From: Halobacteriales archaeon QS_9_70_65
GTDB lineage: Archaea; Halobacteriota; Halobacteria; Halobacteriales; Haloarculaceae
Assembly (NCBI GenBank): GCA_003023535.1
Contig: PXSC01000019.1
Coordinates: forward strand, 1-29,641
DNA length: 29,641 nt
Reading direction: 5' to 3'
Shown here: positions 662 through 27,420 of the stretch, one piece after another
How positions within the stretch are numbered: position 1 is the first letter of the stretch
How the letters are laid out: each line of letters starts with the position of its first letter
Position numbers and translations under genes: made by a program
Notes under the pieces: model-generated
What the model saw: only the letters and a program-made list of their open reading frames with translations
Told to the model about the DNA's origin: nothing
Database searches by the model: none

Positions 662-1156
662 CTAGCGGACCCGCCCGGACAGCAGGCCGACGAAGCCGAG
701 CCCGAACGTCTCGTAGCGTCGCGCCTCCGCGCGGTCGGCCAGCGCCGCCCGCGAGGCCGCCACGCGGCGGGACAGCGGTTCGTCCGGCCGGCCGAACGGC
801 GCCCGGAGGACGTCGCCGGGGCCGCTCCCGGGGGCGCCGGCGGCGGCGGTCGCGACCGGCGGGTCGGTCGCGTCCCCGCGGACGACGGCGACGTCGTCGC
901 CGTCCCGGCCGGCCCGGTCGCGGGCCCGCCGCAGCGGCGGCCCGGCGAGATCGACGCCGACGACGCGGCCCGCCGGGCCGACGCGCTCCCGGAGGTACGG
1001 CAGGTTGGCGCCGGTGCCGCAGCCCATCTCGACGACGGTGTCGCCGGGGCGAGCGACCCGCTCGGCGGCCGCCCGGCGCCACCGCCCGATGCCGGGGGCG
1101 GTTGCGACCCGGTCGTAGACGGCCGCCCACCGGCCGTAGAAGTCGGCGACGCTCAC
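662..1156 (-). CDS. Class I SAM-dependent methyltransferase, internally shortened
   Basis: This is a Rossmann-fold methyltransferase. Motif I, VVEMGCGTGANLPYL, sits at about residues 41-55 and the acidic motif II, VVGVDLAG, at about 65-72. The N-terminus DFYGRWAAVYDRVA is typical of haloarchaeal small-molecule or lipid-type methyltransferases. The C-terminus (DVLRAPFGRPDEPLSRR through LGFVGLLSG) also fits that family. At about residues 100-106 the sequence jumps from RGDATDPPV straight into the C-terminal part. The strand that normally carries the substrate-side motifs after motif II, which I estimate at 40-50 residues, is missing without breaking the frame. At 164 aa it is short for the family (about 200-210). 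Its GTG start overlaps the stop of thiR by four bases (GTGA), so the two are translationally coupled. It is probably inactive, and the substrate is unknown. Confidence 0.75.
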   Translation of the reverse strand: MSVADFYGRWAAVYDRVATAPGIGRWRRAAAERVARPGDTVVEMGCGTGANLPYLRERVGPAGRVVGVDLAGPPLRRARDRAGRDGDDVAVVRGDATDPPVATAAAGAPGSGPGDVLRAPFGRPDEPLSRRVAASRAALADRAEARRYETFGLGFVGLLSGRVR

Positions 1157-2049
1157 CGACGGAGCTCCCGGACGGCGGCGACGACCTCGGCGGCGTCGGC
1201 GCCGAGAACGTAGCAGATCGGCTCGACGCCGAACCCGCCGGTCTGATAGAGCACGTCGGCCGGGCCGTCGGCCAGCGCCGCCGCGACGGCCGGCTCGAGG
1301 TCGGCCTCGGCGTCGAACTCCGCGGTCCCGTGGCCGCGGGCCTCCAGGTCGGCCACCAGCGACGGCTCGTAGCGGACGTTCAGCGCCGCCCGCGCGGGGC
1401 TGCCGGCATTTCGAGCCGCCAGCAGCACGCTCGCGACGTGGCCGGAGACGCCGAACTCCGGGTCGCCGGGCACCGTCGCCGTCCCTTTGACGTCGAGAAT
1501 GCGGCCGGGGACGGCCGCCACGTCGTCGACGGTCGTCGCGTCGGGCAGCGCCTCGACGAGGTTCGACCCGACGGCGGGGATGAGCGCGGCGAAGCCGCCG
1601 GTGTTCTCCAGCGTCGCCACGCCGCGGCGGACCGACGCCCGGACCCGCTCGGTCGTCCGCAGCCGCCCGTCGGGGTCGTGAACGTCGAAGGAGCCCTCGA
1701 ACTCCGCAAGCGGCGGGAAGGCGGCCTCGTGGAGCCGCGCCAGGAGGTCGCCCCGCTCCAGGCGGCGGATCAGCACCTCCGCCTCGACGAGCGCCTGTAC
1801 CCGCGTCATCTCCCCGTCGGCGAGGCCGTCGGCCAGCGTCTCCACCAGCTCCCGGACCCGATCGTCGCCGGCGACGTCGTCGTCGACCTCGACCCCGCCG
1901 TGGGCGTACTTCGAGACGGCGCTCTGAGAGATGCCCAGCAGGTCGGCCACCTCGCTTTGAGTGAGGTCCCGCTCCCGCAGTTCACCCGCCAGGAGCGACC
2001 GGAACGTCGGGAGGAACTCCTCGACGACCACCTCCTCGATGAACCTCAT
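1153..2049 (-). CDS. thiR: HTH-ThiN transcriptional regulator of thiamine genes (ThiR-like)
   Basis: This 298-aa protein has an N-terminal Xre-like helix-turn-helix (about residues 25-52, with DLTQSEVADLLGISQSAVSK) and a C-terminal ThiN domain (about 125-298). In archaea the HTH-ThiN fusion is the repressor ThiR, which senses thiamine phosphate and controls thiamine synthesis and transport. Stand-alone or ThiD-fused ThiN is instead a thiamine-phosphate synthase. ThiN signatures are seen as GGFAALIPAVGSNL and the C-terminal DVLYQTGGFGVEP. The start is ATG at 2049, with a GGTGA ribosome-binding sequence four bases upstream on the minus strand. An IS200/IS605-like element begins directly upstream, so the native promoter is displaced. 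The downstream methyltransferase overlaps by four bases. Confidence 0.85.
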   Translation of the reverse strand: MRFIEEVVVEEFLPTFRSLLAGELRERDLTQSEVADLLGISQSAVSKYAHGGVEVDDDVAGDDRVRELVETLADGLADGEMTRVQALVEAEVLIRRLERGDLLARLHEAAFPPLAEFEGSFDVHDPDGRLRTTERVRASVRRGVATLENTGGFAALIPAVGSNLVEALPDATTVDDVAAVPGRILDVKGTATVPGDPEFGVSGHVASVLLAARNAGSPARAALNVRYEPSLVADLEARGHGTAEFDAEADLEPAVAAALADGPADVLYQTGGFGVEPICYVLGADAAEVVAAVRELRR

Positions 2050-2067
2050 CTTTCACCAAGCAGGAAA

Positions 2068-2087
2068 CCCCGCCCCAAGGGGCGGGG
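2068..2087. repeat. Left-end hairpin of the tnpB element
   Basis: A perfect 9-bp inverted repeat, CCCCGCCCC and GGGGCGGGG, is separated by AA. It lies just inside the end of the element next to thiR. Subterminal hairpins of this type are recognised as single-stranded DNA by TnpA in the IS200/IS605 family. It also lies between thiR and the small divergent gene, where it could end transcription of the latter. Confidence 0.75.
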
Positions 2088-2116
2088 AGGAATGCGACAC
2101 TTAGCCGTCTGTCTAA

Positions 2117-2254
2117 CTACTGCGTTCTGTCGGTGTCGAGGCATTCTGCCCCCTCTAACAACAACCCTTTCCATGTGTATCCTCGCTCGTTTTTCAGTTC
2201 GGTTAGCCAGTCGTGCTGTTCTTCGCTGACTTGTAGCCGCACATCTTTGGGCAT
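2117..2254 (-). CDS. 45-aa protein encoded divergently from tnpB
   Basis: The minus-strand ATG at 2252-2254 opens MPKDVRLQVSEEQHDWLTEL and runs to TAG at 2117-2119. It encodes 45 residues with an N-terminal beta-strand-like segment (DVRLQVS) and a helical part (EEQHDWLTELKNERGYTWKG). Strand-helix peptides of this kind resemble ribbon-helix-helix-type DNA-binding proteins, but that is inference. I recall similar short genes beside tnpB in haloarchaeal IS1341-type elements. It is transcribed away from tnpB, the two start codons being about 55 bp apart, so it may share a control region with tnpB. The clear coding pattern in a low-GC stretch supports a real gene. The function is unknown. Confidence 0.65.
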   Translation of the reverse strand: MPKDVRLQVSEEQHDWLTELKNERGYTWKGLLLEGAECLDTDRTQ

Positions 2255-2308
2255 ACATCTTTGTTAGTTCCCGTGCGCTTTATGTGCTTTGGTCCCGTAG
2301 CAGTAGGT

Positions 2309-3607
2309 GTGACCGCTACCGCCACGAAAACCCTCGAAGCCACACTCGCGCCGCCGACGGCGCACAAAGAGCAACGGCTTCAGCGTACCGTGGCGACGTA
2401 TCGCCGCGCCCTTTCGGAGTCCTTCGAGGGGGGCGCGGACACGCAATCGGCGGTCAACAATGTTGTCACCGGCTACAATCTCACGTCCTACGCGAAGGAC
2501 GCGCTTAAGAACTACGTCCCGCAACTTCGAGACAGCTACAACGCGCTGGAGTTGGACGACGACCACCCTGTTCGGTTCACGAACCGGGGTTGGCGTCTCG
2601 ACCACTCCGAAGACAGAACGCACGAGTTCTGCTGGCGCATCCCGCAAGCCGGACGTGGCAACGCCTTCTGGATTCCACTCCGCATTAATCCCGCACAACG
2701 CGAGTTGTGGGACGACCTTCTCAACGGCGACGTGTCGGTCGGGGAGTTCCGATTGAAAGAACACCGCACGAACTGGGTACTCCACGTTACCGTCGAGTAC
2801 GCGGTCGCGGAATCGGACTACGAACCGACAGACAACGACGTAACACCGGTGGGCTTCGACATCGGTGAAGCCCACCTGCTTGCGGGCTGTGCCTGCGAGC
2901 AAGGTACTCCGACTGACCCACTGCTCATCAACGGTGGTCGCGCTCGCCATCTCCGCAAAGAGATGTTCACGACATTGAAACGGCTTCAAAAGCGTGACGC
3001 CGCCGAGTGGCGGATTGACGAGCGATTCGAGCACTACCAGAACGCGCTCACGGACATCATTGAAAAGGCGTCTCGACGGGCTGTCAAGTACGCCCACCAG
3101 TTCGAGAAGCCGGTAGTTGTGCTGGAAGACCTCTCGGACATCCGCGAAGACCTCGATTACGGCGAGTGGATGAACCGTCGCCTGCACGCATGGGCGTTCG
3201 CTCGCCTTCAACAGCGTATCGAGGACAAAGCACGGGAGGTCGGGCTTCCAGTTATCTATATTCGACCGGAGTACACGAGTCAGACCTGCCACGAGTGCAA
3301 TCACGTCGGCTACCGCAACGGCGACGAGTTTCGCTGTACGAACGACGAGTGTTGGGTCACGGAGTACCACGCAGACATCAACGCGGCAGCCAATATCGCT
3401 GACCGCCACGACCCGTGGGGTGAGAGCCTGCCGCTGAAACCGGCGGGCAATGACATCCCTCGGGACGGGAGCGCCTGTGACAGCGCCACGGAACACCGGG
3501 AGGCGAGTCGGGAATCCCGACAGACGACCCTCCCGACGTACAGTTCCGAAACTTCCTCGCATAGCGAGGCTTCTCTTGTAGGAAGCCCCGCCGTTCACGG
3601 CGGGTGA
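2309..3607 (+). CDS. tnpB: TnpB, RNA-guided nuclease of an IS200/IS605-like element
   Basis: TnpB proteins are RuvC-type nucleases guided by an RNA made from the element's right end, and they promote transposon retention. All parts are present in this 432-aa copy. The catalytic residues are Asp184 (VGFDIGEAHL), Glu273 (VVLEDLSD) and Asp356 (HADINAAAN). A four-Cys zinc finger lies at about 326-350 (CHECN and CTNDEC). The GTG at 2309 gives the expected start VTATATKTLEATLAPP, while the longer frame from 2261 adds a non-homologous leader. No frameshift is visible, so it may be active. The last ~20 codons overlap stem-loops expected to be part of the guide RNA. Confidence 0.88.
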   Translation: MTATATKTLEATLAPPTAHKEQRLQRTVATYRRALSESFEGGADTQSAVNNVVTGYNLTSYAKDALKNYVPQLRDSYNALELDDDHPVRFTNRGWRLDHSEDRTHEFCWRIPQAGRGNAFWIPLRINPAQRELWDDLLNGDVSVGEFRLKEHRTNWVLHVTVEYAVAESDYEPTDNDVTPVGFDIGEAHLLAGCACEQGTPTDPLLINGGRARHLRKEMFTTLKRLQKRDAAEWRIDERFEHYQNALTDIIEKASRRAVKYAHQFEKPVVVLEDLSDIREDLDYGEWMNRRLHAWAFARLQQRIEDKAREVGLPVIYIRPEYTSQTCHECNHVGYRNGDEFRCTNDECWVTEYHADINAAANIADRHDPWGESLPLKPAGNDIPRDGSACDSATEHREASRESRQTTLPTYSSETSSHSEASLVGSPAVHGG

Positions 3608-3615
3608 GGATGTCA
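3550..3615 (+). ncRNA. Probable guide RNA (omega/reRNA) 3' region of the tnpB element
   Basis: Two stem-loops follow each other at the 3' end of tnpB: CCTCGC/GCGAGG at 3555-3569 and CCCGCCG/CGGCGGG at 3587-3604. They end at the element boundary. In characterised TnpB systems the guide RNA scaffold comes from this position, and its guide is copied from DNA just beyond the right end. Here that DNA is the dcd 3' end read in antisense. The RNA limits are not visible in the sequence, so only the structured core is marked. Confidence 0.45.
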
Positions 3616-4645: not shown

Positions 4646-4670
4646 ACGTCCGGGAATCCGACCGAATCTG

Positions 4671-4689
4671 TCACCACAATTTATGGTGA
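4671..4689. promoter_or_regulatory. Palindromic operator over the TATA box of the abrB-vapC operon
   Basis: A perfect 6-bp inverted repeat, TCACCA and TGGTGA, flanks CAATTTA, whose AATTTA is the likely TATA element. A start point about 25 bp downstream would fall just before the ATG at 4716. A dyad over the TATA box suits autorepression by the AbrB-type antitoxin or the antitoxin-toxin complex. This is seen in the sequence, but binding is inferred. Confidence 0.6.
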
Positions 4690-4715
4690 TAGAAGGCGTT
4701 CGACGCGACAGAGCG

Positions 4716-4973
4716 ATGGGCACGAGCGATGAATCTGCGGATGCGTCCGAGTACGGGACGGCCGAACTGAACGACCGCGGCCGACTCACGATCCCCAAGG
4801 AGCTACGCGAGGACCTCCAGTTGGAGGGCGGGACGGAGTTCGTGGTGGTCCGCGAGGGCGGCGACATCCGACTGGTACGCCAGCTCCCCGCCCTTGAGAC
4901 GCTCACCCGGGACGAGGAGTGGGGCGAGGAGGCCTTCCGGGATGCCGGCGAAGCGACGTTCGGAGGGTCCTGA
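4716..4973 (+). CDS. AbrB/MazE-type antitoxin
   Basis: The 85-residue protein has a swapped-hairpin AbrB domain at about residues 14-60 (TAELNDRGRLTIPKELREDL, then GTEFVVVREGGDIRLVR). An acidic C-terminal tail (LTRDEEWGEEAFRDAGE) is expected to wrap around and inhibit the toxin. The ATG at 4716 was chosen over the ATG at 4683 because it follows the TATA box and operator at a suitable distance and begins the usual Ser/Asp-rich leader. Its TGA overlaps the toxin ATG (TGATG), giving translational coupling. Together with the next gene it forms a type II toxin-antitoxin pair that is probably self-regulated. Confidence 0.85.
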   Translation: MGTSDESADASEYGTAELNDRGRLTIPKELREDLQLEGGTEFVVVREGGDIRLVRQLPALETLTRDEEWGEEAFRDAGEATFGGS

Positions 4974-5425: not shown

Positions 5426-5434
5426 CGACCCCAC

Positions 5435-8524: not shown

Positions 8525-8546
8525 TGATCGCGATCGCTGCGAGCCA

Positions 8547-8921: not shown

Positions 8922-9201
8922 TTACTCGAACCGGCCGACCAGCTCGCGGAGTTCGTCGGCCCGGCCGTCGCCGGTCGCGACGTTGGAGAACACCCACTCG
9001 AGCTGTCCGAGAACGGCCTCGAATCCCTCCTCGGTGAGAGCGTACTCGTTGGTCCGCTTGTCGAGTTCGCTCTTCTCGACGAGTCCCATCTCCACGAGGT
9101 CGTCGAGGTTCGGGTAGAGTCGACCGTGGTTCACCTCGCTGCCGTAGTAGCTTTCGAGTTCGCGCTTGACGGCGCGAGACGGTAGAGCGTGCTTCTGACA
9201 T
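8922..9201 (-). pseudogene. PadR-family transcriptional regulator with damaged N-terminus
   Basis: PadR proteins are winged-helix regulators. The part from VKRELESYYGSEVNHGRLY through NEYALTEEGFEAVLGQLEWV and the C-terminal dimer helix (ADELRELVGRF) is a good match. The natural start seems to be ATG 9199-9201 (MSEARSTVSR), preceded by an AT-rich promoter (TTTACTAAGTGTTAAG on the minus strand). That frame is shifted against the wing part at about 9168-9178, where the first recognition helices (the usual LTAFQ... segment) are missing. An alternative open frame from 9233 gives a non-homologous MLSMPRTCQFPCQKHALPS leader. DNA binding is probably lost. Confidence 0.7.
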
Positions 9202-9335
9202 GGAAACTGACAGGTTCGCGGCATACTTAACACTTAGTAAACATCTACTTGTCTCCGGTTGTCGATGTTGCGATTCCGGCCCGCGGTTGGGGGCGTGTCG
9301 AAAGCTCTTTGCGGCCGTCACGCCCACGCCGACGT

Positions 9336-10130
9336 ATGGCCGGAACGAACCTGTGGACGGACCTCGAAACCGGGCCGGACGCCCCCGAGGAGATCTACGC
9401 GGTCGTCGAGTGCCTGAAAGGCGAACGCAACAAGTACGAGTACGACAAGGACGTCCCCGGCGTCGTACTGGACCGGGTGCTGCACTCGAACGTCCACTAC
9501 CCGTCGGACTACGGGTTCATCCCGCGGTCGTACTACGACGACGAGGACCCCTTCGACGTGCTGGTGTTGGTCGAAGACGCCACCTTCCCGGGCTGCGTCG
9601 TCGAGGTCCGCCCGGTCGCGCTGATGAAGATGGACGACGACGGCGAGCAGGACGACAAGGTCATCGCGGTGCCGAGCGAGGACCCCCGCTTCGACCACGT
9701 CGAGGACCTCGCGGACATCCCCGAACAGACGCTCGCGGAGATCGACGAGTTCTTCGCGACCTACAAGAACCTCGAGGAGGGCAAGGAGGTCGAAACACGG
9801 GGCTTCGAGGACCGCCAGGCCGCCTTCGACGCCATCGAACACGCCCAGGAGACTGCGTCTGACGACGTGGAGGCTGTGAGCCTCCACTGGGGCTTTCGCG
9901 TGGACTCCCGCTCTGGCCGGATTCTCCGGCAGGAGGGTCATACTCTCCGTTCGCGTTCAACGTCCCGCGATTTAAGCGCACGCCTACGGGTGCGCCTCCG
10001 TCGTCCCCAGTTTGGTTCCGACGGAGATACCGCAAGCCGATGTTCTTCGCCGCGTTATAGTCGGCGTGGTTCTCGTAGCCACATTTCAGGCACTCGAAGT
10101 CCTCGCCCTCGCGGTTGTCCGGGTGCGTGA
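9336..10130 (+). CDS. ppa: Inorganic pyrophosphatase with C-terminus replaced by IS sequence
   Basis: Family I soluble pyrophosphatase hydrolyses PPi to drive biosynthesis. Residues 1-172 match the archaeal enzyme, including [27 protein letters not shown] and the metal-binding EDPFDVLVL, and all active-site acids are present. After EHAQE (base 9851) the sequence enters an IS200/IS605-like element. The frame then reads about 92 unrelated residues to a stop at 10130. The usual last few residues of the roughly 177-aa family are lost and not found on the far side of the element. The catalytic core is complete, so activity is possible, but the basic tail is foreign. The gene is essential in most organisms. 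Confidence 0.85.
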
Positions 10131-11110
10131 ACCCACATGTCGAACATCGACGGGACGTGTTCTCTGGGTTCACCTGTTCTGTGTCGATGCCGTGTAACTC
10201 GGCTTTGTATTCGACGTATTCGTACAACCGCTCGAAGGCCCATTCGTGGCCCCACGACGCGCCAGAAAGCTTGTCGCGGATGCCGGTCAACTCCTCGAAG
10301 GCGATGACCGTACACCCGTTCTCGGTTGCCTCCTCAATGATACCATTGGCAATCCGGTGGAGCATCATTGTGAATCGACCCGTCTCTTTGCGACCGATTG
10401 CCTGGATGTTTTCGTGGGCATGGCGGCTTCCACATTGCTGAAGCGAGCCACGCCGCTTCTCATACTCGCGCCGCCAATGGTCGAACTCGTGACCGCTCCA
10501 GAACACACCCGTCGACGTGACCGCGAGTTGGTTCACGCCGAGGTCAGTGCTCGGCTGTTGCCTGTCCCAGCGTGTCGAACTCCATCTCCGCCTTTGTGCG
10601 AAGGTGAAGGAACCATCCGTCGTCTCTGTGGTGTAGTTCCGCACCCGTCACTTCGTAGTCCTCGTTGAACAGATACCGGCTGTGAGGCGTGTCGCGGTCG
10701 GCGTCGGGTAGGACATACTCAACCTCGATGCGTCCATCCACGGTCGCCAGCGACACGAACCCATCGTGGAAGGTTGCACACCGCTTGTCGTAGACAGCAG
10801 TTGGATTCGAGAAGTGCGGTTTGCCAGCGTACTCGCCCTGTTTCCAGCGTGCGACGACGCTCTGTACGGCGTCGGCGGCCTTGTTGCGAGCGTTCTGGAC
10901 GAGATTCGCGTGCAATTGTGTCTGGTCGCGCACCTCGTCGTAGGTTTCCTCCTGCAACTGTGCCTTGCTGGTCGTCTTGTATTCGCCCCGCCATGCGTGT
11001 TTGACGACGTAGTTGGCGGACCACAGAAACTCGTCTACTGTTTCGTGCAGAAGTGCGGCGTGGTCGCTGTCTACGTCAAGTTTGACCGGGACAGTTCGCC
11101 GCACCTCCAT
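9855..11110 (-). pseudogene. tnpB: Frameshifted tnpB
   Basis: The frame starts at ATG 11110 ([20 protein letters not shown]) and runs to TGA near 10547 (LGQATAEH). The rest of TnpB continues in another frame from about 10555: [12 protein letters not shown] with the first catalytic Asp, [14 protein letters not shown] with the Glu, the zinc finger CSTCG/CLKCG, and [11 protein letters not shown] with the last Asp. At the junction (about 10545-10552) the few residues normally leading into VDLGVN are missing, which points to a short deletion. The C-terminal frame has no stop within the element and reads into ppa in antisense. It is unlikely to give active nuclease. Confidence 0.8.
9867..9930 (-). 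ncRNA. Right-end stem-loops, possible guide RNA scaffold
   Basis: Two perfect stems, GTGGAGGC/GCCTCCAC at 9867-9887 and GCCGGA/TCCGGC at 9916-9930, lie where tnpB ends and the element meets ppa. By analogy with other TnpB elements they would form the guide RNA 3' part, with a guide taken from ppa sequence. The RNA itself is inferred, and the hairpins are seen directly. Confidence 0.4.
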
Positions 11111-11150
11111 ACGTCAGACGTATGTCTAATGGTTTATCAATGTAGGGAGG

Positions 11151-11508
11151 GAGGAGGGCAACAGTTCATGGAATGTGTCGGAGTTGTCGACTTCCTCTCC
11201 GGCCTACTCGCTCGCGTCGCTCGCTCTCTTCTCACGGGCGCAAAGCGCCCGTTCGAATGGTCAGAGGGACCTCCGGTCCCTCCCGACTTGACGCCAGAGA
11301 CTCCGCCTCGAAATCGCTGATACCGCCGGCTGTAATTCTTTCGAGACGTCTCGGCGGTATCCGGGTGGATACCGTCCGGAGTATCCGTCCGGAACCCCAT
11401 CTTCTCGACGGGGCCGCTTCACGTCGTTACGGCCGGCGGTGTGAGCGGCCGCCCGCGACCGCGCCGTCGCCGCCCAAACGATTAGCCACCGGCGCCCGAA
11501 CGACGGAT
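11151..11508. repeat. Cluster of inverted repeats between the IS element and the carotenoid oxygenase gene
   Basis: This stretch has no recognisable gene but at least four dyads: CGGGCG/CGCCCG around CAAAG (about 11236-11253), GGGAC/GTCCC around CTCCG (about 11266-11280), GATACCGCCG at 11319-11328 with CGGCGGTATC at 11352-11361, and GGATAC/GTATCC at 11367-11386. The large one could end transcription in either direction. No T-run is adjacent. They may be relics of older element ends, since they sit beside the IS. A promoter for the next gene would lie near 11480. Confidence 0.45.
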
Positions 11509-12806
11509 ATGTCAGTCGACTACCGACCCGGCTTCGAGACCCAGCGGGAGGAACTGCGCGACGAGCGGCTTCCCGTCGAGGGATCGCTGCCGGCGTGGCT
11601 CCGAGGGCGGTACCTCCAGAACGGCCCCGGGCAGTTCGAGGCCGACGGCGAGCCGCTGAACCACTGGTTCGACCCCTACGCGATGCTGCGGCGGGTCGCC
11701 TTCGACGACGACGGCGTCCGCTACGCCAACCGGTTCGTCGAGAGCGAGGACCTCGCCTTCGAGCGGTCGGGCGGCGGCGTCCGGACGCCCTTTCCGGGGA
11801 CCGCGCCGGACCGACCGGTCTGGCCACCGAGGAGCGGGTCGACCTCACGGCGGGGCTGGACTGCGACCTCACGCTGGGGCACCGCCACCGCGACCCCGAC
11901 GGGACCGTCCTCAACCTCGGCGTCTCCTACGGCCGGGAGACGACCTACACGCTGTTCCGGCGAGACGGCGGCGAGCCGACGCCGCTCGCGACGCTGCGGT
12001 TCGACGAGGCACCGTACGTCCACTCCTTCGCCGTCACCGAACGGTACGCGGTCATCACCGTCGGCGGCTACGGGCTGGACCTGTCGTCGCTGCTGGTCGG
12101 CAGCCTCACCGGAACGACGTTTCTCGACGCCTTCGGGCCGCTGGAAGGGCCGACACGGTTCGTCGTCCTCGACCGGACGGACGGCGAGCGGGTCGCGACC
12201 GTCCCCGCCGACCCGTTCTTCGTCTACCACCACGCCAACGCCTACGAGGACGGCGACGGGCTCGTCGTCGACCTGGTGGCGTTCGACGACGAGTCGGCGG
12301 TGACCGGCCTCACCCTCGAGAACCTGCGCAGCGAGACGCCCGACCTGCCGGCCGGCGACCTGATCCGGTACCGGCTGCCGCTGGACGGCGACGACGCCGA
12401 GCGCCGCGAGTTGCGGCGCGGCCCCCTCGAGTTCCCGACCATCCACTACCGGCGGCGCATCGGCCGGAAGTACCGGTACGTCTACGCCGCCGAAACCCAC
12501 GGCGGGTCGAGTCTCCCGACGGACCTCGTGAAGATCGACCTCGAGACGGGACGGGCCCGGACGTGGGGCGAACCGGGCAGCCACCCCGGCGAGCCGATCT
12601 TCGTGCCGGCGCCGGACCCCGACACCGAGGACGACGGCGTCCTCCTGTCAGTGGTCTGCGACCCGCCGGCCGACCGCTCGACGCTCGTCTGTCTCGACGC
12701 CGCGACGATGACCGAGCGGGCCCGTGCCCCGCTGCCGCACCGCCTGCCGTACGGTTTCCACGGCCAGTTCTACGGCCCGACCGACCCCGGCCGGAGCATG
12801 ATCTGA
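11509..12806 (+). pseudogene. Carotenoid oxygenase (RPE65/CCD family), internally deleted and frameshifted
   Basis: The family uses iron held by four His residues to cleave carotenoids. The frame from ATG 11509 (MSVDYRPGFETQREELRDER) contains the N-terminal propeller blade, LRGRYLQNGPGQFE and LNHWFDPYAML, as far as DRPVW near 11822. The remainder, from LATEERVDLTAGLDCDLTLG to HGQFYGPTDPGRSMI, is in another frame. It keeps His-containing blocks (GHRHRDPDG, VHSFAVTERYAV, VYHHANAYEDGD, FHGQFYG). An estimated 40-50 residues between the two parts are absent. Unless the lesion is an assembly error the protein is not made whole. In haloarchaea such enzymes could supply retinal or apocarotenoids. Confidence 0.8.
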
Positions 12807-13469: not shown

Positions 13470-14689
13470 ATGGGACTGTTCGACCGACTCCGCGGCGGCG
13501 ACGGACCGCGGGTCGCCTTCTTCGGTATCGACGGCGTACCGTACAGCCTCGTCGCTGACAACCCGGACACCTTCGAGACGCTCGACGCGATCGAGGCGGC
13601 CGGCGCCGGCGGCGCCATCGATTCCATCGTGCCGCCGGAGTCGTCGGCCTGCTGGCCGGCGCTGACGACCGGCGTCAACCCGGGGGAGACGGGCGTCTAC
13701 GGCTTCCAGGACCGCGAGGTCGACAGCTACGACACGTACGTCCCGATGGGTCGGGACGTCCGGGCGACGCGGCTGTGGGACCGCGTCGACGACGCCGGCC
13801 GCGAGGCGACCGTCATGGACGTCCCCGTGACGTTCCCGCCGGACCGCGAGGTCCAACGGATGGTCAGCGGCTTTCTCTCGCCGGGCGTCGAGGAGGCCGC
13901 CTACCCCGACGACCTCCGGGAGACGCTGGAGGACCTGGAGTACCGCATCGACGTCAACGCCAAGCTCGGCCACGACGACGACAAAAGCGAGTTCATCGAG
14001 GACGCCCACGAGACGTTGGACGCACGATTCGACGCGTTCGAACGCTACATCCAGCAGGACGACTGGGACCTGTTTTTCGGCGTCTTCATGACCACCGACC
14101 GGGTCAACCACTTCCTGTTCGAACACTACACCCGGGACGGCGAGTACCGCGAGGAGTTCCTCGAGTTCTACGCGAAGGTCGACCACTACCTGGGCGAGCT
14201 GCGCGACATGCTGGACGAGGAGACGACGATGGTCGTCGCCTCCGATCACGGCTTCACCACCCTCGAGCACGAGGTCAAGTGCAACGTCTGGCTCGAGGAA
14301 AACGGCTGGCTTTCCTACGAGGGCGACGACCACGACAGCCTCGCCGACATCGGCGCCGACACGCGAGCGTACTCGCTGATCCCCGGGCGCTTCTACGTCA
14401 ACCTGGAGGGCCGCGAGCCGCGGGGGGCGACCACGACGACATCGCCCCGGACCTCGTCGTCGTTCCGAACCACGGCTTCGACCTGAAGTCCGGGTTCAAG
14501 GGCGGCGACGACGTCTTCGCGACCGGCCCTCGCAACGGAATGCACAGCTTCGACGACGCCTGTCTGTTCGTCGACGACGAGAGCATCCGCGTCGGCGACG
14601 CCGACCTCTACGACATCGCGCCGACCGTCCTCGACCTGTTGGAACTGGAGATCGACCGTACGGCGTTCGACGGCGCCAGCCTGGCCTGA
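13470..14689 (+). pseudogene. Type I phosphodiesterase/nucleotide pyrophosphatase (alkaline phosphatase superfamily), frameshifted
   Basis: The superfamily hydrolyses phosphate esters with two metal ions. The first frame (ATG 13470) gives FFGIDGVPYSLV with the metal-binding Asp, the nucleophile region PPESSACWPALTTGVNPGE, the MTTDRVNHFLFEHY block, and VVASDHGFTTLEHEVKCNVW with the Asp-His pair. It breaks after EGREPRG at about 14421-14427. Another frame resumes with GDHDDIAPDLVVVPNHGFDL and contains RNGMHSFDDACLF and DIAPTVLDLL to the stop at 14689. An estimated 35-45 residues between them are missing. The metal-ligand blocks lie on both sides, so the split copy is likely inactive. Confidence 0.8.
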
Positions 14690-14793: not shown

Positions 14794-15517
14794 ATGGACG
14801 ACCCCTCCGACCGGGACCCGATGCAGCGAGGCTCCTCTCGCTTCGAGGACGTCGAGCAGGCGGTACACAGGGCCGACGAGTCGCCGTCCGGGTCGCCGCC
14901 GGCCGGACGGTCGGCGCCGCCGTTGCCCTCGGCGTCGGCGGTATCCTCGTTCTCGGGCTCGTCACCGGCGTCGTCGGGCTCGCCGGCGGCGCGGTCGGCC
15001 TCTCCTTCGAGGTGCTCTCGCTCGTTTCCATCGCCGTCGGGCAGTACGTCGGCTTCATCGGGCTCGGAGCCGCCTACCTCCGGGCCCGCGGGTTCGGCTG
15101 GCGCCGCCTCCGCTCGTACCTCGGCGTCCGGCTCCCGACGCTCCGCGAGGTCGGGGTCATCGCCGCCGGCTACGCCACCATCATCGGCACGCTCCTGATC
15201 GTCCTGAGCGTCGCACTGCGGTTCCTGCCGGAGCCGGCGGAAAACGGCGGCGCGGAGACGTTCGCCAACAACCCGGAGCTGATTCCGGCCGGCATCGTCG
15301 TGATGTTCCTCGTCGTCGGCCCCGCCGAGGAGTTCCTCTTCCGTGGTGTCGTCCAGAACCGCCTCCGGGAGCGGCTCTCGGCCGTGCCGGCGGTCGCCGC
15401 CGCCGCCGTCATCTTCGCGTCGCTCCACGTCATCGCGCTGGCCGGCTGCTGCTGACGGTTTTGCTGCTCGGCAGCATGGCCGGAGAGAACGTCGGATTCC
15501 TGTCGGCGCTGGTCTGA
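14794..15517 (+). pseudogene. CPBP-family intramembrane metalloprotease, disrupted twice
   Basis: CPBP (Abi/Rce1-like) proteases are multi-pass membrane enzymes with motifs EExxxR, FxxxH and HxxxN/D. The soluble start (ATG 14794, MDDPSDRDPMQRGSSRFEDV) is in one frame. The membrane part is in another from about 14890 (VAAGRTVGAAVALGVGGILV, then FEVLSLVSIAVGQYVGFIGL). It contains PAEEFLFRGVVQNRLRERL and FASLHVIALAG. The second lesion at about 15445 removes the helices with the HxxxN motif, after which LLLTVLLLGSMAG and a stop at 15517 form a plausible native C-terminus in a third position. Without the last motif it should be inactive. Confidence 0.75.
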
Positions 15518-16745: not shown

Positions 16746-16748
16746 CCG

Positions 16749-17249
16749 GTGATCCGGGTCGTCCTGGCGGTGACGCTGTCGACCGCGCTGCTCGGAGCGA
16801 GCCTCCCGGCCGCCGAGCGGGCCGAGCGGGACCGCAACGCGGCCGTGGCGACGAACGAACTCGAGGAACTCGCCCGGACCGCCGACCGCCTCGCCGCCGA
16901 GAACGACCCCGTCGCGCCGGCGGCGACACCGGCGACGGCGACGATCGTCGTGGCGCCGCCGGTGCCGACGGTCACCGACGGCGGTCGAATCGTCGTCGAC
17001 GACGACCGGCTGGCGTGGGTGCCCGCGACCGGCGAGGCCCGGAGCGTCGACCCGGCGATACGGCTCCGAACGCCGGCGCCGCTCGTCGTCGCCGACCGGA
17101 CGCGACTGCGGCTCGCCCTCGTCCGGACCGACGACGGCCCGGCCGTCCGGGTCCGCCGGGCCCGTCGGGCGAGGGTTGAAAAGGGAAGCCGCAGCCAGAC
17201 GGCCCGTGTTCGGGAGCCTGCTCTCGTCCGAGGAGGACTGCCGGTGTGA
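16749..17249 (+). CDS. Short exported protein of the pilus operon (DUF7311-like)
   Basis: A GTG start at 16749 gives MIRVVLAVTLSTALLGASLP, an N-terminal hydrophobic segment like a signal or pilin-type anchor. A helical stretch with ERAERDRNAAVATNELEELA follows, then an Ala/Pro/Thr-rich and beta-rich domain (ATIVVAPPVPTVTDGGRIVV). This layout resembles minor pilin-like components and fits the haloarchaeal family placed here in other genomes (DUF7311 by memory). The 3' end overlaps the ATPase gene by 44 bp if the ATPase starts at 17206, so the last ~15 basic residues may be poorly conserved. No enzyme motif is seen. Confidence 0.7.
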   Translation: MIRVVLAVTLSTALLGASLPAAERAERDRNAAVATNELEELARTADRLAAENDPVAPAATPATATIVVAPPVPTVTDGGRIVVDDDRLAWVPATGEARSVDPAIRLRTPAPLVVADRTRLRLALVRTDDGPAVRVRRARRARVEKGSRSQTARVREPALVRGGLPV

Positions 17250-18882
17250 GACGGCCTTCGAGCGCGACCGGCTGTGCGTCGACAGCGACGACTGCCCGGG
17301 CGAGGGGCGTCTCGCGGAGTCGGCGCCGTGTCGGGCGACCGTCGTCGGGGCCCTCGAGGAGCGGGACGCCGACGTCGTCTCGACGCGTGCCGCCGGCTTC
17401 GAGCGGGCCTACGAGGTCGCGGGCGGGCGGGGCGGCGCTCCGGCCCGGACGGCCGCCGAGACCGGCCTGGCGGCGTTTCTCGAGGCCGACTACGAGGGGT
17501 TGCTCCGACCCAGCGTCGGCCCGACGGTCGCCCGCTCGCGGGTCGCCACGCGGCCGCCGCCGGACGTGACGTTGCGGGACCGCTACGAGCTCGACACCGG
17601 CGCCGTCGTCCGCCGGTACGAGCGCGACGGGCTCGACACCTACCACCTGATCCCGGCCGAACACCGGCTGGACGCCGACGCGACCGCGACGCTGGCCCGT
17701 GCCTACGAGCGGCTCGCTCGGGGGGCCGTCGCCGGCGGCGACCGGGCGCCGGCCCGGGCGGTCCGGTCGGTCGCCGGCGCCGATCAGCCGGTCGAGACGC
17801 TCGTCGCCGCCCTGCGGAAGCACACCACCGGGCTGGGCGTCATCGAGGACTGCTTCGCCGACCCGGCGGTGACCGACGCGTTCGTGACGGCCCCGGTCGA
17901 GGACAACCGTATCCGCGTCCGTCACGACGGGGCGACGCTCCGCACGAACGTCCGGCTGACGGCCGACGGCGCCGACGCGCTGGCCTCGCGGTTCCGCCGC
18001 TCCAGCGGCCGCGCCTTCTCGCGGGCGAGTCCGACGCTGGCCGCCACCGCCGACGCCGGCGACCGGCGGGTCCGGGTCGCCGGCGTCACCACGCCCGTCA
18101 GCGACGGCGTCGGCTTCACCTTCCGCGCCCACGACGAGTCGGCCTTCCGGCTGTCGGATCTCGTCGACAACGGGACGCTCGCCCCGGCGACGGCCGCCTT
18201 TCTCTCCGTGGCCGTCCGTCGCGGGGCGGCGACGCTCGTGGCCGGCGCCCGCGGCGCCGGCAAGACGACGCTGCTCGGGGCGCTGCTGTGGGAGCTGCCG
18301 GTCGACGTCCGGACGGTCCTCATCGAGGACACGCCGGAGCTGCCGGTCGGCGAGCTGCAGGCGGCCGGCCGGGACGTCCAGCCGCTCCGGGTCGCCACCG
18401 GTGACGGCGCCTCCATCGAGCCGACGGAGGCGCTCCGGACCGCCCTCCGGCTCGGCGACGGCGCCATCGTCGTCGGCGAGGTCCGCGGCGAGGAGGCGAC
18501 GGTGCTGTACGAGGCGATGCGGGTCGGCGCGGCCGACGGGGCCGTCCTCGGGACCATCCACGGCGGGGGCGGCGAGTCGGTCCGCGAGCGGGTTGTCACG
18601 GATCTCGGGGTGCCGGAAACGGCCTTCGCCGACACGGACCTCGTCGTCACGCTCGAGGCGTACGACGACGGCGACGGCCGGCGGCGACGGCTCCGGGCGG
18701 CCGAGGAGGTGCGCCGGACCGACGACGGCGTCGGCTTCGCGACCGTCGCGACCGAGGGGTCGCTGTCGCTCGACGGCTGTCGCACCCTCGACGCGCTCGC
18801 GGGGCCGACGGAGACGGTCGCCGACATCCGGGCCGAAATCGACCGGACCGCCGACGAACTGGCCGGGCGATGTCGCTGCTGA
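17206..18882 (+). CDS. Secretion ATPase of the type II/IV (PilB/TadA/VirB11-like) family
   Basis: This hexameric ATPase powers pilus assembly at the cytoplasmic side. The 558-aa protein has a Walker A motif GARGAGKTTLLG at about residues 347-358, an Asp/Glu box (VLIEDTPELP), Walker B GAIVVGEVRGEEA (about 420-432) and the His box LGTIHGGGGESVRERV (about 448-463). The N-terminal domain has a Cys cluster (CRCETAF, LCVDSDDCPG, APCRATV) that probably binds zinc. GTG 17206 (VFGSLLSSEEDCRC) is preferred to TTG 17176 because it gives the usual short start before the Cys cluster. It overlaps the upstream gene by 44 bp and the platform gene by 13 bp. Confidence 0.9.
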   Translation: MFGSLLSSEEDCRCETAFERDRLCVDSDDCPGEGRLAESAPCRATVVGALEERDADVVSTRAAGFERAYEVAGGRGGAPARTAAETGLAAFLEADYEGLLRPSVGPTVARSRVATRPPPDVTLRDRYELDTGAVVRRYERDGLDTYHLIPAEHRLDADATATLARAYERLARGAVAGGDRAPARAVRSVAGADQPVETLVAALRKHTTGLGVIEDCFADPAVTDAFVTAPVEDNRIRVRHDGATLRTNVRLTADGADALASRFRRSSGRAFSRASPTLAATADAGDRRVRVAGVTTPVSDGVGFTFRAHDESAFRLSDLVDNGTLAPATAAFLSVAVRRGAATLVAGARGAGKTTLLGALLWELPVDVRTVLIEDTPELPVGELQAAGRDVQPLRVATGDGASIEPTEALRTALRLGDGAIVVGEVRGEEATVLYEAMRVGAADGAVLGTIHGGGGESVRERVVTDLGVPETAFADTDLVVTLEAYDDGDGRRRRLRAAEEVRRTDDGVGFATVATEGSLSLDGCRTLDALAGPTETVADIRAEIDRTADELAGRCRC

Positions 18883-21423: not shown

Positions 21424-22187
21424 GCACCGTCCTCGACGTGGCGGTCTGTCTGCTGCTCGTCGGGGCGGCGCTGGCGACGTTGTCCGGGATTCCACCGTCG
21501 CCGGCCGCCCAGCCGGAGGTCGACGCCGACACCGCCGCCCGGACCGTCGCGACGACGACGACCGGCGTCCCCGTCGACGGTCGGACGCGACACGGCACGC
21601 TCGCGACGCAGTTGGCGGACGCCGCCGTCGCCGGAGCGACGCTCGACGACCGCCGGCTGGTCGAGACGGCGTACGACGAGGCGGTCGCCGACGCAACGGA
21701 GGCGGAAACCGACGACCGGGTGTTCGTCACCGCCACCTGGGAACCCTACCCAGACGCGACGGTCTCCGGCCGTCTCAACGCAGGACGCCGTCCCCCCGAC
21801 AGTGCCGACGTGGCCGCGACGACCCTCGTCGTCGACAGCGGCGTCGACGCGCCGACGGCTTCGACGTTCGACGCGCTCGCCCGCGAACTCGCGGCCGCCG
21901 TCGTCGACAGGCTGTTCCCGCCGCGACGCACCCGCGCGGCGCTCGTCGACCCGCGGACGTCGGCCCGGGCTGCGACACGCTATCGGACCGCGGCCGCCCG
22001 GCTCGGGGTCGACGTCGACCGGGCGGTCGCCGACGCCGACGCCGCCGCGGCCAACGAGGCACTTGCCGCCGGGCTCGCTTCCCGGTTCGAGCCGGAGCTC
22101 CGCGACCGGTACCGGACGCCGGAGGCGGCCGCCGCCGCGCTCACGGCCGACGAGGTCGAGATCGTCGTCAGGCGGTGGGACCGATGA
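21408..22187 (+). CDS. Exported protein of the pilus operon (DUF7284-like)
   Basis: A GTG start at 21408 gives VARGVSTVLDVAVCLLLVGA, which is Arg-Gly followed by a hydrophobic helix of about 20 residues, as in pilin-type signals. The mature part (about 235 residues) is helical and rich in Ala, Arg and Asp, ending in VEIVVRRWDR. At 259 aa it is long for a simple pilin and may be a minor or tip component. The start overlaps the preceding stop by 16 bp, and the end overlaps the next ATG by four bases (ATGA). No enzyme motif is seen. The DUF number is from memory. Confidence 0.72.
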   Translation: MARGVSTVLDVAVCLLLVGAALATLSGIPPSPAAQPEVDADTAARTVATTTTGVPVDGRTRHGTLATQLADAAVAGATLDDRRLVETAYDEAVADATEAETDDRVFVTATWEPYPDATVSGRLNAGRRPPDSADVAATTLVVDSGVDAPTASTFDALARELAAAVVDRLFPPRRTRAALVDPRTSARAATRYRTAAARLGVDVDRAVADADAAAANEALAAGLASRFEPELRDRYRTPEAAAAALTADEVEIVVRRWDR

Positions 22188-24994
22188 ACGACCGGGCCCG
22201 GGTCCCGTTCGCGCTCGTCGGCGTCCTCGTGCTCGTCTCGAGTACGACGCTGGCGGCGACGGTCGTCACCGACGACCCCTCATCGACCCTCGCGGTCGAC
22301 CGTGCCATGAACGGCGCGACGGACGAGACGGTGACGACCCTGCGGACCGCGGCGGACGACGCGGCGACCCGGACGGCGTCGAACCCGGTCACCGTGCCGG
22401 CGAACACGACCGCCGGCCGCGCCCTCGACGAGGACCGCCCGTTCCGGGACGCGCTCCGGCTGCGCATCTACCTGCTGGCCCGGGACCGCCTCGAGACGGT
22501 CGCGGTGCGCCGCGGCGGCGTCGTCGCGAACGCCTCTCTCCCGCCGGTCGCGCCGACGACGGAGGGCTACCGGTCGGCGATCGAGCGCGTCCGCGTCGAA
22601 CGAGCCGGCCCGAACGGGACGGCCCTGCGCGTCGAGATACGCGGCGTCCGGCTGACCGGCACCCACGAGGGCCGGACCGTCGCAAGCGAGGAGCTGTCGC
22701 CGACGTTCGTGGTCGCGAACCCGGCGCTGCTGCAGCACGACCGGACCGAGCGCTTCGAGCGGCGGGCGAACGCGCCGGTCACCCGCCCCGGCCTCGCCCG
22801 GCGGCTCACCGCCCGGCTCCATCCGATCGCGTGGACCCGCGGCTACGCACAGTACGGCGGGGCGCCGATCGCGAACGTCGTCGGGACCCGCCACGTCGAG
22901 TTGGCGACGAACGACGGCCTGCTGGCCGAACAGCGGGCGGCCTTCGGAACGGCCGACCCCGAAGGCGACCGCGGCGTCGCCGCCGCTGCCGGCCGGGTCG
23001 CGACGGAGGACCTCGTGGCAGGGACGGCGATCAACGATCGATGGACGGACGTGGTCCTCCCGAAACCGGACGGGTCGGACTCGGCGGCGTCGCGCCGGCG
23101 CCGGGGCACCTGGCGCGAGTCGCCGACCGACCCGTCGGTCACGGTCGGCGTCAACGGCTCCGCCGACCGGGCCTTCGCGGACGTCGTCGGCATCGACGGC
23201 GACGACGAACTCGCCCGTGCCGTCGAGCGCGCCCACACGGTCCAGGCACGGACCGTCGTCGAGACCTCCCGTCGCGGGAGCGACGTCCGGCGGACCGGGC
23301 CGCCGGGCGGCTCGTGGCGCCTCGTCGGCGAGCGGACCACGCGCCGCGTGACGCTCGAGCCGGCGGCGGGCCGGCCGCCGACCGCCCCCGGCTGGGAGAC
23401 CAGAGACGGTGCATCGTTCCGGGCCACCGAGACGGAGACGACGACGCGGTCGTGGCGCCGCGGCGACGAGCGGACGACGACGACGGCTGTCGTCGAGCGA
23501 ACGTACCGCGTTCGCGTCGCCGTCCAGGCGCGGACCGCACCGGTCCGGGGCGCCCCGCCCGGCGCGCTCGACGGGGCGCTGTCGGGGGCGACCGACCGGG
23601 CCGTCGACGCCGCCGCCGCGGAGGCCGGCGGCCTGGAGGGAGCCGCCAGGCGGGCGGTCGCCGGCGGCGACGTCTCGGCGACGGCGAACGCGACCGCCGA
23701 CCCGACGGTCGAGCGGGCGGCCGTCGAGGCCGATGTCCGGGCGCTCAGAGAGCGGACCCGGGCGTTCTCGACGACCGTCCCGGCAACCGACCTGGCGACG
23801 GGCCGCGCCAACCCGCCCCGGCGGCTCCACGAAGACCTGACCGCCCGCCGCGACCGGCTGCGCGGCGAGGCCGACCGGTCGGCCGCCGAGCGGGCCCACG
23901 TGGCGGCGCGTGCGGCGTACCTCGACGCCCTCGAGGGACGCCTCGAAACGCGGGCGGAGCGACACGGAGAGGTGAACCGGGGCGTCGGCGACGAACTCGC
24001 CGACCACGTCGATCCGGCCCGGCTCGACGGCGCCCTTGCGGCCCACCGGGCGGCCTCGCGGTCGCCGTCGAGAACCTACGAGGACCCGGCCGGGAACCTC
24101 TCGCTGGCCGTCGAGACCGGGCCGTCGTACCTCCCTTCCAGCCCGGTCCGCCGCGACCGCATCGACGCTCGCGGCGAGGGAACCATCCACCCGCTCGCGA
24201 CCCGGAATCTGAACGTCTTCGCGTCCCCGCACGGCCAGGTCGTGAAGTCGATCTTCGACCGGCTGCCGATCCTCGGCGAGAGGACCGTCTCGCTCGCGAC
24301 GGCCGCGCAGGTGCTGGCCGAGATGGACGGCGACGAGCGTCGGGACGATGCCCTGCGGGCGGAGGTGGCGCGTGCGAACCGCCACGTCCGGGGCGAGCTG
24401 ATCGCCGCGATGACCGCCGAGGGCGTGTCGGAGTCGGCGGCGCGGGCGGCGCTGGAGACCGACGCGTCGACGGCCGCCGAGGCGAAGGCGCTCGCCGACG
24501 GCTCGGCGACCGACCGGGCCCTGTCGACGACCGACGGCGCCGCCGGGGCGCTGAAGGACGAGATTCGGAAGGGACTGGAGTCGGCCGCCAAAGCGCGCCT
24601 CGAGGCGGCGATCGAGGACGGACGGCGGCGGGCGCTCGGCAAGCGGGCCGGCTCGCTGCCGGCCGGACTGCCGCTCGCGCCGCCGCTGACCGGCTGGTAC
24701 GCGACCGCCAACGTCTGGTACGTCGAGACCGCCGGCACCTACGAGCGGTTCGTCGTCCGGAGCGACCGCGGCGACGCCCGGGGACCGACCGTCTACGTCC
24801 GGGAGGGACGGGTGTCCCGGCTCGACCACGGCGACCGACGGCTGCGGCTCGGCCGCGACGAGCACGTCTCCTTCCGGACGGAGACGGCCGTCGTGGTGGT
24901 GGTCCCGCCCGGCCGGAGCGGCGTCGGCGACACCGACGGCGTGGCCGACGAGCGCTCGCCGGGGTGGCCGCCGGACGGGGAGGGCGACCGGTGA
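22184..24994 (+). CDS. Very large exported protein of the pilus operon (DUF7286-like)
   Basis: The 936-aa protein starts at ATG 22184 (MNDRARVPFALVGVLVLVSS). It has one N-terminal hydrophobic segment (about residues 8-27) after a short basic leader and no other clear membrane helix. Most of the chain is Arg/Ala/Asp-rich helix with beta stretches, including a likely helical region at about residues 560-660, a Gly/Val-rich block (PSYLPSSPVRRDRIDA) and an Asp/Gly-rich end. It is the largest and last gene of the coupled block, starting four bases inside the previous gene. It may be a surface or tip protein, but no known domain is recognised. The alternative ATG at 22175 adds only MGP. Confidence 0.75.
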   Translation: MNDRARVPFALVGVLVLVSSTTLAATVVTDDPSSTLAVDRAMNGATDETVTTLRTAADDAATRTASNPVTVPANTTAGRALDEDRPFRDALRLRIYLLARDRLETVAVRRGGVVANASLPPVAPTTEGYRSAIERVRVERAGPNGTALRVEIRGVRLTGTHEGRTVASEELSPTFVVANPALLQHDRTERFERRANAPVTRPGLARRLTARLHPIAWTRGYAQYGGAPIANVVGTRHVELATNDGLLAEQRAAFGTADPEGDRGVAAAAGRVATEDLVAGTAINDRWTDVVLPKPDGSDSAASRRRRGTWRESPTDPSVTVGVNGSADRAFADVVGIDGDDELARAVERAHTVQARTVVETSRRGSDVRRTGPPGGSWRLVGERTTRRVTLEPAAGRPPTAPGWETRDGASFRATETETTTRSWRRGDERTTTTAVVERTYRVRVAVQARTAPVRGAPPGALDGALSGATDRAVDAAAAEAGGLEGAARRAVAGGDVSATANATADPTVERAAVEADVRALRERTRAFSTTVPATDLATGRANPPRRLHEDLTARRDRLRGEADRSAAERAHVAARAAYLDALEGRLETRAERHGEVNRGVGDELADHVDPARLDGALAAHRAASRSPSRTYEDPAGNLSLAVETGPSYLPSSPVRRDRIDARGEGTIHPLATRNLNVFASPHGQVVKSIFDRLPILGERTVSLATAAQVLAEMDGDERRDDALRAEVARANRHVRGELIAAMTAEGVSESAARAALETDASTAAEAKALADGSATDRALSTTDGAAGALKDEIRKGLESAAKARLEAAIEDGRRRALGKRAGSLPAGLPLAPPLTGWYATANVWYVETAGTYERFVVRSDRGDARGPTVYVREGRVSRLDHGDRRLRLGRDEHVSFRTETAVVVVVPPGRSGVGDTDGVADERSPGWPPDGEGDR

Positions 24995-25532: not shown

Positions 25533-25534
25533 CG

Positions 25535-26307
25535 ATGCGGGTCGCGATACTCGGCTGCGGCTACGTCGGCTGCGAACTCGCCCGGCAGCTCCGGCCGGCC
25601 CACGACGTCGTCGGCGTCCGCCGCTCGGAGACGGGGCTGGCGGCCGTCGAGGCGACCGGCGCCGAGGCGGTGCGGGCGGACGTGACCGACCCGGCGGCGC
25701 TCGAGCGGGTTCCGGACGCCGACGCGCTGGTCTTTGCGGCCTCCTCCGGCGGCCGGGGCGCCGAGGCCGCCGAGCGGGTCTACGTCGACGGCCTGCGGAC
25801 GACCATCGAGGCGTTCGGCGCCCGCGAGTCGCCGCCCGAGCGGCTCGTCTACACCTCGAGTACGGGCGTCTACGGCGACCACGACGGCGGCTGGGTCGAC
25901 GAGGCGACGCCGCTCGACCCGACGACGGCCCGGACCGCTACCGGCTGGACCGGTACCTCGAGGGGCCCGTCACCGAGGGGTACCTGAACATGATCCACCG
26001 CGACGACGCGGCGGGGGTCGTCCGGTTCATGCTCGAGTCGACCGACGAGGAGCTGCTACTGGCGGTCGACGACGAGCCGGCCGACAAGTGGGCCTTCGCC
26101 GACTGGCTGGCCGACGCCTGCGGCGTCGAGCGACCCCCGAAGCGGACGAAGGCCGAGCGGCTCGAGGACGACCTCTCGGCGGCCGCCCGGCGCCGCATCC
26201 GGACGAGCAAGCGCTGCTCGAACGACCGGCTCCGGGCGCTCGGCTACGAGTTCCGGTATCCGACCTACCGGGAGGGCTACCGCCCGGCCGTCGAGACGCA
26301 TTTTTAA
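25535..26307 (+). pseudogene. NAD(P)-dependent epimerase/dehydratase (extended SDR), frameshifted by a deletion
   Basis: Extended SDR proteins act on nucleotide sugars or related substrates. The first frame (ATG 25535) has the Rossmann start MRVAILGCGYVGCELARQLR (GxGxxG), VFAASSGGRGAEAAERVYVD and the active-site region RLVYTSSTGVYGDH. It changes frame after PLDPTT at about 25929-25935. The second frame resumes with GPDRYRLDRYLEGPVTEGYL and then MIHRDDAAGVVRFML to the stop at 26307. An estimated 30-40 residues that usually lie between, including the AExxxL/RxAGxYGP section, are absent, so cofactor contacts and fold are broken. The gene is preceded closely by the DUF5791-like gene. Confidence 0.8.
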
Positions 26308-26355
26308 AACTGTTCCGCCCGAAGAAACTATTGTAACGGGGAAAAAGTGTGGTGT

Positions 26356-27420
26356 ATGTACGGCCAGGTGTCCGGCAACCCCGCGGCGGTCGGCGGCCGG
26401 CCGGTCGAGGTGGTGCTCCAGCGGCCGGTGCTGCTGATCGCGACCGTCGCCGCGGCTGCCGTGGTGCTGGCGACGGGGGTGTACCTCCTGCGGCGGTTCA
26501 CCGCGCCGGCGGGCGAGCAGTTCGTCGCCGCCCTCGAGGAACTCGAGGAGGTGGTCGTCCTGATGCACCCGACCCCGGACCCCGACGCGATGGCCTCGGC
26601 GATGGCCGTCGCGATTCTCGCGGAGTCGGTCGACACCGACGCGACGATACAGTACCCCGGAAAGATCCGCCGCTCGGAGAACCGAGCCTTCGAGGCGGTA
26701 CTGGAATGTGAGTTCGACCGCATCGTGACCGACATCGACCTCGCGGCCGACGAGGTCGTCCTCGTCGATCACAACGAACCCCGCGGGTTCACGGGTGCCG
26801 ACGGAGTCGACCCGTATGCGGTCGTCGATCATCACCCCGGCGACGGCGAGGGCCGGGCGTTCACCGACGTCCGCCCGGGCCACGGCTCGTGTTCGAGCAT
26901 CCTCGCGGAGTACCTCGCCGACAGGGGCCACGGGGACACCGGCGACCGGCCGCTGCCGTCGCGGCTCGCGACCGGCCTGCTGTACGGCATCCAGTCGGAC
27001 ACGACGTCGTTCACGCGGGGCTGTGTGAAGTCGCGGGCGATACGTCGCCGCCGCGACGACGGCGGCGGGCCGTTTCTCGTCAGTCACGTCGGCAGCATCG
27101 GCGCCAGGGAGTCCCTCTCGGCGGCCGCGGACGAACTCATCCGGCTCGAAGGGATCACCGCGGTCGTCGTCACCGGCGAGAAAAACGGGGAGCTGCACGC
27201 CTCCGGCCGGTCGCAGGACGACCGGGTTCACATGGGCAAGACCCTCGAGGTCGCCTTCGACGACCTTCCGGACGCCAGCTTCGGCGGTCACTCCCGGATG
27301 GGCGGCGGTCGGGTTTCGCTGCCGGGCGGCGGGCGGACGAACCCGCCCGAGCTGGCCACCGACGGCGGCTCGACCGAACTCCACGCACAGCTGTTCGCGG
27401 CGATGAACGGCGAGCTTTGA
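26356..27420 (+). CDS. DHH-family phosphoesterase with N-terminal membrane helix, internally shortened
   Basis: DHH phosphoesterases cleave nanoRNA or cyclic dinucleotides using Mn. The ATG at 26356 gives a leader, then a membrane helix (VLLIATVAAAAVVLATGVYL, about residues 24-44) and the catalytic domain. Its motifs are MHPTPDPDAMAS, VVLVDHNEP, VVDHHPGDGEG (DHH) and LLYGIQSDTTSFTRGC, followed by the DHHA1 part with GGHSRMGGG. At about 27019-27027 the text jumps from RGC to VKSRAIRRRR, losing about 30 residues of linker helices without shifting the frame. The product may fold poorly. Its TGA stop (27418-27420) is the first codon of an IS-type end, TGACATCC. Confidence 0.8.
   Translation: MYGQVSGNPAAVGGRPVEVVLQRPVLLIATVAAAAVVLATGVYLLRRFTAPAGEQFVAALEELEEVVVLMHPTPDPDAMASAMAVAILAESVDTDATIQYPGKIRRSENRAFEAVLECEFDRIVTDIDLAADEVVLVDHNEPRGFTGADGVDPYAVVDHHPGDGEGRAFTDVRPGHGSCSSILAEYLADRGHGDTGDRPLPSRLATGLLYGIQSDTTSFTRGCVKSRAIRRRRDDGGGPFLVSHVGSIGARESLSAAADELIRLEGITAVVVTGEKNGELHASGRSQDDRVHMGKTLEVAFDDLPDASFGGHSRMGGGRVSLPGGGRTNPPELATDGGSTELHAQLFAAMNGEL

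Follow-up and report, generated by a model that had tools for sequence, protein, structure and literature searches.

Genes of the window with missing blocks

The window analysed here is a stretch of 29,641 bases from a halophilic archaeon, Halobacteriales archaeon QS_9_70_65 (contig PXSC01000019.1). It has a guanine plus cytosine (GC) content of 71%, does not contain a single N, and appears to be a whole contig. As listed in Table 1, it carries a series of genes, running from a methyltransferase to a DHH phosphoesterase, from which short internal blocks are missing relative to related genomes. The nearest of these, G001, is the metagenome-assembled genome (MAG) QS_4_69_225, which is collinear with the window at approximately 95% identity. 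The next relative is G014 (MAG QS_8_69_73, 76% complete), and a third, G008, shows 84 to 92% identity to the window over the main matches. The last number in such MAG names, which we take to be the coverage, is 225 for G001 and 73 for G014.

The missing blocks were found by chained alignments of the window with the relatives, and their exact lengths were measured against G001. A sequence-only reading had named eight genes with such a junction, and all eight junctions exist, each at most 7 bases from where it had been placed. Three additional junctions (at 14903, 17415, and 24519) bring the total to 11 in about 26 kb, or approximately one per 2.5 kb. The chained alignments against G001 gave clean losses at seven of the eight named places as well as at 17415 and 24519, the eighth, in tnpB, is visible against G014, and the loss at 14903 sits within an alignment rather than between chained pieces. 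The reading frame is preserved at 4 of the 11 junctions, and at exactly two of the named ones, as had been read from the sequence. The flanks are likewise as undamaged as they had seemed, since 99 to 110 of 110 columns match G001 at the ten junctions outside tnpB.

Table 1. Genes of the window that lack internal blocks. Lengths at the ten junctions outside tnpB refer to G001.
Gene	Position	Strand	Absent sequence	Frame	Pfam match	Relatives
SAM (S-adenosylmethionine)-dependent methyltransferase	662..1156	-	168 bp at 844-846	kept	Methyltransf_25	G001 and G014 168 bp longer
PadR-type regulator	8922..9233	-	80 bp at 9175	broken	PadR	same 80 bp in G001, G014, and two G008 contigs
second tnpB-type gene	9661..11110	-	73 or 17 bp at 10547	two frames	Cas12f1-like_TNB on downstream piece; no match on upstream piece	
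carotenoid oxygenase (RPE65 family), start approximate	11420..12806	+	130 bp at 11820-11824	broken	RPE65	block in G001, G014, and G008
alkaline-phosphatase-superfamily hydrolase	13470..14689	+	124 bp at 14424-14430	broken	Phosphodiest	block in G001 (447-aa ORF), G014, and G008
CPBP (Rce1-like) protease, start inferred from G001 frame	14794..15517	+	34 bp at 14903 and 124 bp at 15447	both frame-shifting	Rce1-like	
type II/IV secretion ATPase (T2SSE/TadA-type)	17176..18882	+	111 bp at 17415-17417	kept	T2SSE	nearest among the matches listed 595 aa
DUF7286 protein	22175..24994	+	102 bp at 24519-24521	kept	DUF7286	block in G001 (973-aa ORF), G014, and G008
NAD-dependent epimerase-type gene	25535..26307	+	100 bp at 25925-25931	broken	Epimerase on upstream piece	block in G001 (290-aa ORF), G014, and G008
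DHH/DHHA1 phosphoesterase	26347..27420	+	102 bp at 27025	kept	DHH, DHHA1	G014 with overlapping 118-bp loss
aa, amino acids; bp, base pairs; ORF, open reading frame.

Outside tnpB, the block is present in G001 at all ten junctions and in G014 at nine, the exception being 27025. The comparison with G008 covered eight of these ten junctions with both flanks mapped, the other two giving no answer, and G008 was longer than the window at all eight, with an equal block length at five. The possibility that the blocks are gains in the relatives was rejected, as ORFs of G001 run through them and G014 and G008 have them as well.

Three of the genes deserve further description. The length of the tnpB loss is ambiguous. 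Compared with the same-site copy of G014 (C60) it amounts to 73 bp, but four other copies, all in G001, give 17 bp, the difference being 56 additional bp with an inverted repeat that the G014 copy has and these four do not. For the methyltransferase, a full-length protein (P0122) is encoded on another contig (3,872 bases, source 'ena') that is 100% identical to the 164 aa of the window and has the block. The protein similarity searches covered the 120 best matches each. Among these, the next five DHH proteins after that of the window were 386 to 388 aa long, the closest being 97% identical outside the block. The loss in the DHH gene of G014 overlaps that of the window with different ends, and the DHH protein P0037 of QS_1_68_44, a third MAG named in this series, is without two conserved stretches, one of which overlaps the window loss. 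A region lost in three assemblies with different ends is possibly a drop-out hotspot. The DHH block itself has an ordinary GC content (0.70) and folds weakly.

The losses exceed chance

Chaining of the window against G001 revealed nine clean blocks of 40-200 bp that are absent in the window and two that G001 lacks, namely a dispersed repeat of 112 bp (near 8531-8640) and a block of 170 bp (near 13104). There was no clean gap of this size in 68.8 kb of pairwise alignment of 17 isolate loci, where the nearest gaps measured 219 and 269 bp, with one more of 410 bp. The losses in the window are thus more than chance.

A sibling genome shows the same class of loss

In 110 kb of shared alignment, G014 is without 13 clean blocks of 56-120 bp that G001 possesses, and G001 is without two. 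Most of the 13 were judged against G001 only, and two fall in the region of the window, which either keeps the sequence or has also lost it. Two further differences in the size range, at which G014 is longer by 75 and 122 bp, are flanked by unaligned sequence on either side, and a G014 loss of 202 bp narrowly exceeds the range.

Two of the affected G014 genes are informative about the cause. Coenzyme A (CoA) synthesis and the charging of isoleucyl-tRNA are needed by any living cell, which makes CoaBC and IleS indispensable. In G014, coaBC is split by a frame-breaking loss of 97 bp, and a search found a single gene, whose two pieces leave profile positions 263-299 uncovered; the G001 gene matches TIGR00521 with 336 bits. 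A full-length open copy of ileS was found in 55 of 60 relatives. In one of the other five, G014, a 31-bp loss within a contig breaks the frame and splits the gene, in another the gene is cut at a contig end, and the remaining three gave weaker matches only. No full-length open copy of coaBC or ileS was found in G014, which is 76% complete, so that a second copy could strictly speaking lie in the missing part. Since both functions are essential to every cell, these losses can hardly be biological.

The N runs in G014 also understate the gaps that they represent. The fetched sequence contained four such runs, of which two could be placed on G001, and a third lacked a clean counterpart. A run of 159 N corresponds to 411 bp in G001 and a run of 37 N to 115 bp, so the distance between contigs was underestimated in both testable cases.

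Properties of the blocks and junctions

The sequence-only reading had suggested that short GC-rich segments might have been skipped. The ten measured blocks of the window have a mean GC content of 0.743, as against 0.738 in random blocks from the region, with slightly less structure (z +1.1). In G014 the difference (0.704 versus 0.659, z 1.65) is not convincing, and the GC-rich detail is not supported. A search for hairpins in the blocks found none. Drop-out at places with unusual conservation or variability between strains was rejected as well, as the identity of the blocks was 0.958 to G014 (random 0.947) and 0.902 to G008 (random 0.886), based on nine blocks each.

If the losses are indifferent to the reading frame, about one third should preserve it in the absence of selection, and this was found both in the window (Table 1) and in G014 (5 of 13). 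The substitutions were compared in 16 ORFs picked by rule, five of them broken, with the methyltransferase, padR, CPBP, and T2SSE genes outside the set. The share of substitutions at third positions was 0.586 in the broken and 0.588 in the 11 other ORFs (P = 1.0). This test did not indicate that selection is relaxed in the broken genes, although a loss that happened very recently would give the same picture.

The microhomology at the 11 window junctions measures 2, 0, 0, 4, 6, 0, 0, 2, 2, 6, and 0 bp, with a mean of 2.0 compared to 0.84 expected by chance. The breakpoints of 12 of the 13 G014 losses, which could be measured, have an ambiguity of 0-4 bp with a mean of 1.1, close to the same chance value. 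The check at the deletion ends that had been proposed together with alignment to close relatives thus gave a mixed answer: the blocks are present in the relatives, and homology exists at some junctions but is zero at 5 of the 11.

Origin of the missing blocks

The sibling G014 shares the defect, has understated N gaps, and has coaBC and ileS broken. The proportion of frames kept, the like substitution patterns of broken and other ORFs, the methyltransferase with its block on another contig, and the isolate loci without such gaps point the same way. From these sequence comparisons, we infer with high confidence that the missing blocks in the window are very probably gaps in the assembly that the software closed and left unmarked, and not DNA that was lost by the organism. 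The window would then have been assembled in the same way as G014. Of the two readings offered earlier, frequent deletion in the strain or skipping of short segments by the assembly, it is thus the second that is favoured.

A short-read assembler would break the genome into contigs at ordinary places, after which read pairs would order the contigs and the software would underestimate the distance between neighbours. A positive estimate would presumably lead to Ns being written, and a zero or negative one to contigs being butted together, in which case a real gap of 30-170 bp would be closed unmarked. Underestimated distances would therefore make some 30-170 bp vanish, leave clean flanks, and preserve the frame only by chance. 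IDBA-UD is an assembler that probably abuts or trims contigs when the estimated distance is negative.

A study of Atacama salt crusts published in 2017 sampled Salar Llamara, with Qs as the driest site, and used 100-base read pairs, libraries of 600-1000 bp, 13 cycles of polymerase chain reaction (PCR), and assembly with IDBA_UD (PMC5532433; BioProject PRJNA351262). The passages of that paper name the curation of bins and no step for correcting local errors (PMC5532433). G001 and G014 are tied to this study through their QS names, and it is plausible that the window shares its origin with the MAGs of this study. A 2015 study describes short deletions as 'common in idba-ud assemblies' and reports a rate of approximately one mis-assembly per 120 kb in a single yeast genome (PMC4384745). 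As far as the short deletions and local errors in IDBA-UD metagenome assemblies are described in these passages and in a further paper of 2020, they resemble those in the window in being short losses from the consensus with clean flanks in otherwise intact genes, but they were found by curators who mapped reads, whereas the window losses are inferred from relatives, and the density in the window is far higher (PMC4384745; PMC7111523).

Several observations do not fit comfortably with unmarked assembly gaps. The density of approximately one per 2.5 kb far exceeds the approximately one per 120 kb given in the published passage (PMC4384745). G001 bears a name of the same series but has lost few blocks, which means that the assembler is not the only cause. 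The lost lengths cluster near 100 bp (34-168 in the window, 31-120 in G014), which a plain coverage-gap model does not predict. As a set, the window junctions have more homology than expected, with 2 of 11 at 6 bp where 0.6% is expected. The intact methyltransferase allele could also reflect a polymorphism, and the isolate control is small, its sole divergence-matched pair covering 13.2 kb at 93.3%. The length at which the losses cluster is similar to the read length of the sibling study.

The main alternative is that the strain truly underwent many recent short deletions, approximately one per 2.5 kb, by slippage or end-joining, with about ten genes broken here and about a thousand genome-wide. 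The absent blocks with clean flanks, the somewhat elevated junction homology in the window, and the DHH gene, which is affected with different ends in the window, in G014, and in QS_1_68_44, would agree with this. Natural deletions between direct repeats, through slippage or microhomology end-joining, likewise remove tens to hundreds of bases internally and leave the flanks intact. However, they usually have repeats at their ends and result in decaying genes, whereas 5 of the 11 junctions have no repeat, hairpins were not found, and the broken genes do not show decay or relaxed selection. Multiples of three are not preferred either, the same class of loss affects coaBC and ileS in the sibling, and the methyltransferase has an intact allele in an otherwise identical protein. 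Taken together, this makes frequent deletion in the strain, as proposed in the sequence-only reading, very unlikely. An extended form of this idea, in which a haloarchaeal lineage of very dry salt crusts loses blocks of approximately 100 bp genome-wide, independently of repeats and recurrently at hotspots, the DHH gene among them, and lives as a mosaic in which different cells carry different broken genes, is slightly less likely still.

It could also be that the original record had N runs at the junctions, which were removed in later handling. The window is without any N, and a deleted run would give the same look, but the records of the sibling MAGs retain N runs and G014 shows the same losses without N, which renders this explanation more improbable again. 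Internally deleted molecules formed during library PCR would suit the 13 cycles used in the sibling study (PMC5532433) and the short homology at a few junctions, by template switching, but such chimeras should be random per molecule and not take over the consensus at eleven places, and with unstructured blocks and 5 of the 11 junctions lacking homology, we regard this as the least probable origin.

Other differences between the window and its relatives

The approximately 110 bp at 8531-8640 of the window are absent at the same place in G001 and match seven other places in G001 and seven others in G014, with approximately 75-87% identity. This segment is a dispersed short repeat, and it folds no better than shuffled sequences. 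Two tnpB-type stretches with a Cas12f1-like_TNB match in Pfam (2050-3612 and 9856-11315) are inserted relative to G001, and G014 carries the second one at the corresponding position. A MazE/AbrB-like and PIN-domain gene pair, resembling a toxin-antitoxin system (4683-5425), is absent at this place in G001, and G014 aligns through it. At 16322-16344, G001 carries approximately 810 bp extra, which are found neither in the window nor in G014 and G008. A scan of the window against Rfam gave zero matches at gathering scores, and the single tRNA called by ARAGORN was discarded because its anticodon is incomplete and it lies inside the DUF7286 gene.

Implications

The losses in the window most likely represent a familiar type of assembly defect that is unusually dense here, rather than a feature of the organism, and no new biology would be involved. 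Uncurated MAG records of such kind can hide a silent gap every few kb, as a result of which genes seem truncated, frameshifted, or domain-deleted, which leads to errors in counts of pseudogenes, in protein databases, and wherever the window is taken for natural sequence. Such gaps can be spotted quickly by comparing a record with that of a close relative. If the losses were real, they would represent a deletion rate found in none of the isolate loci compared.

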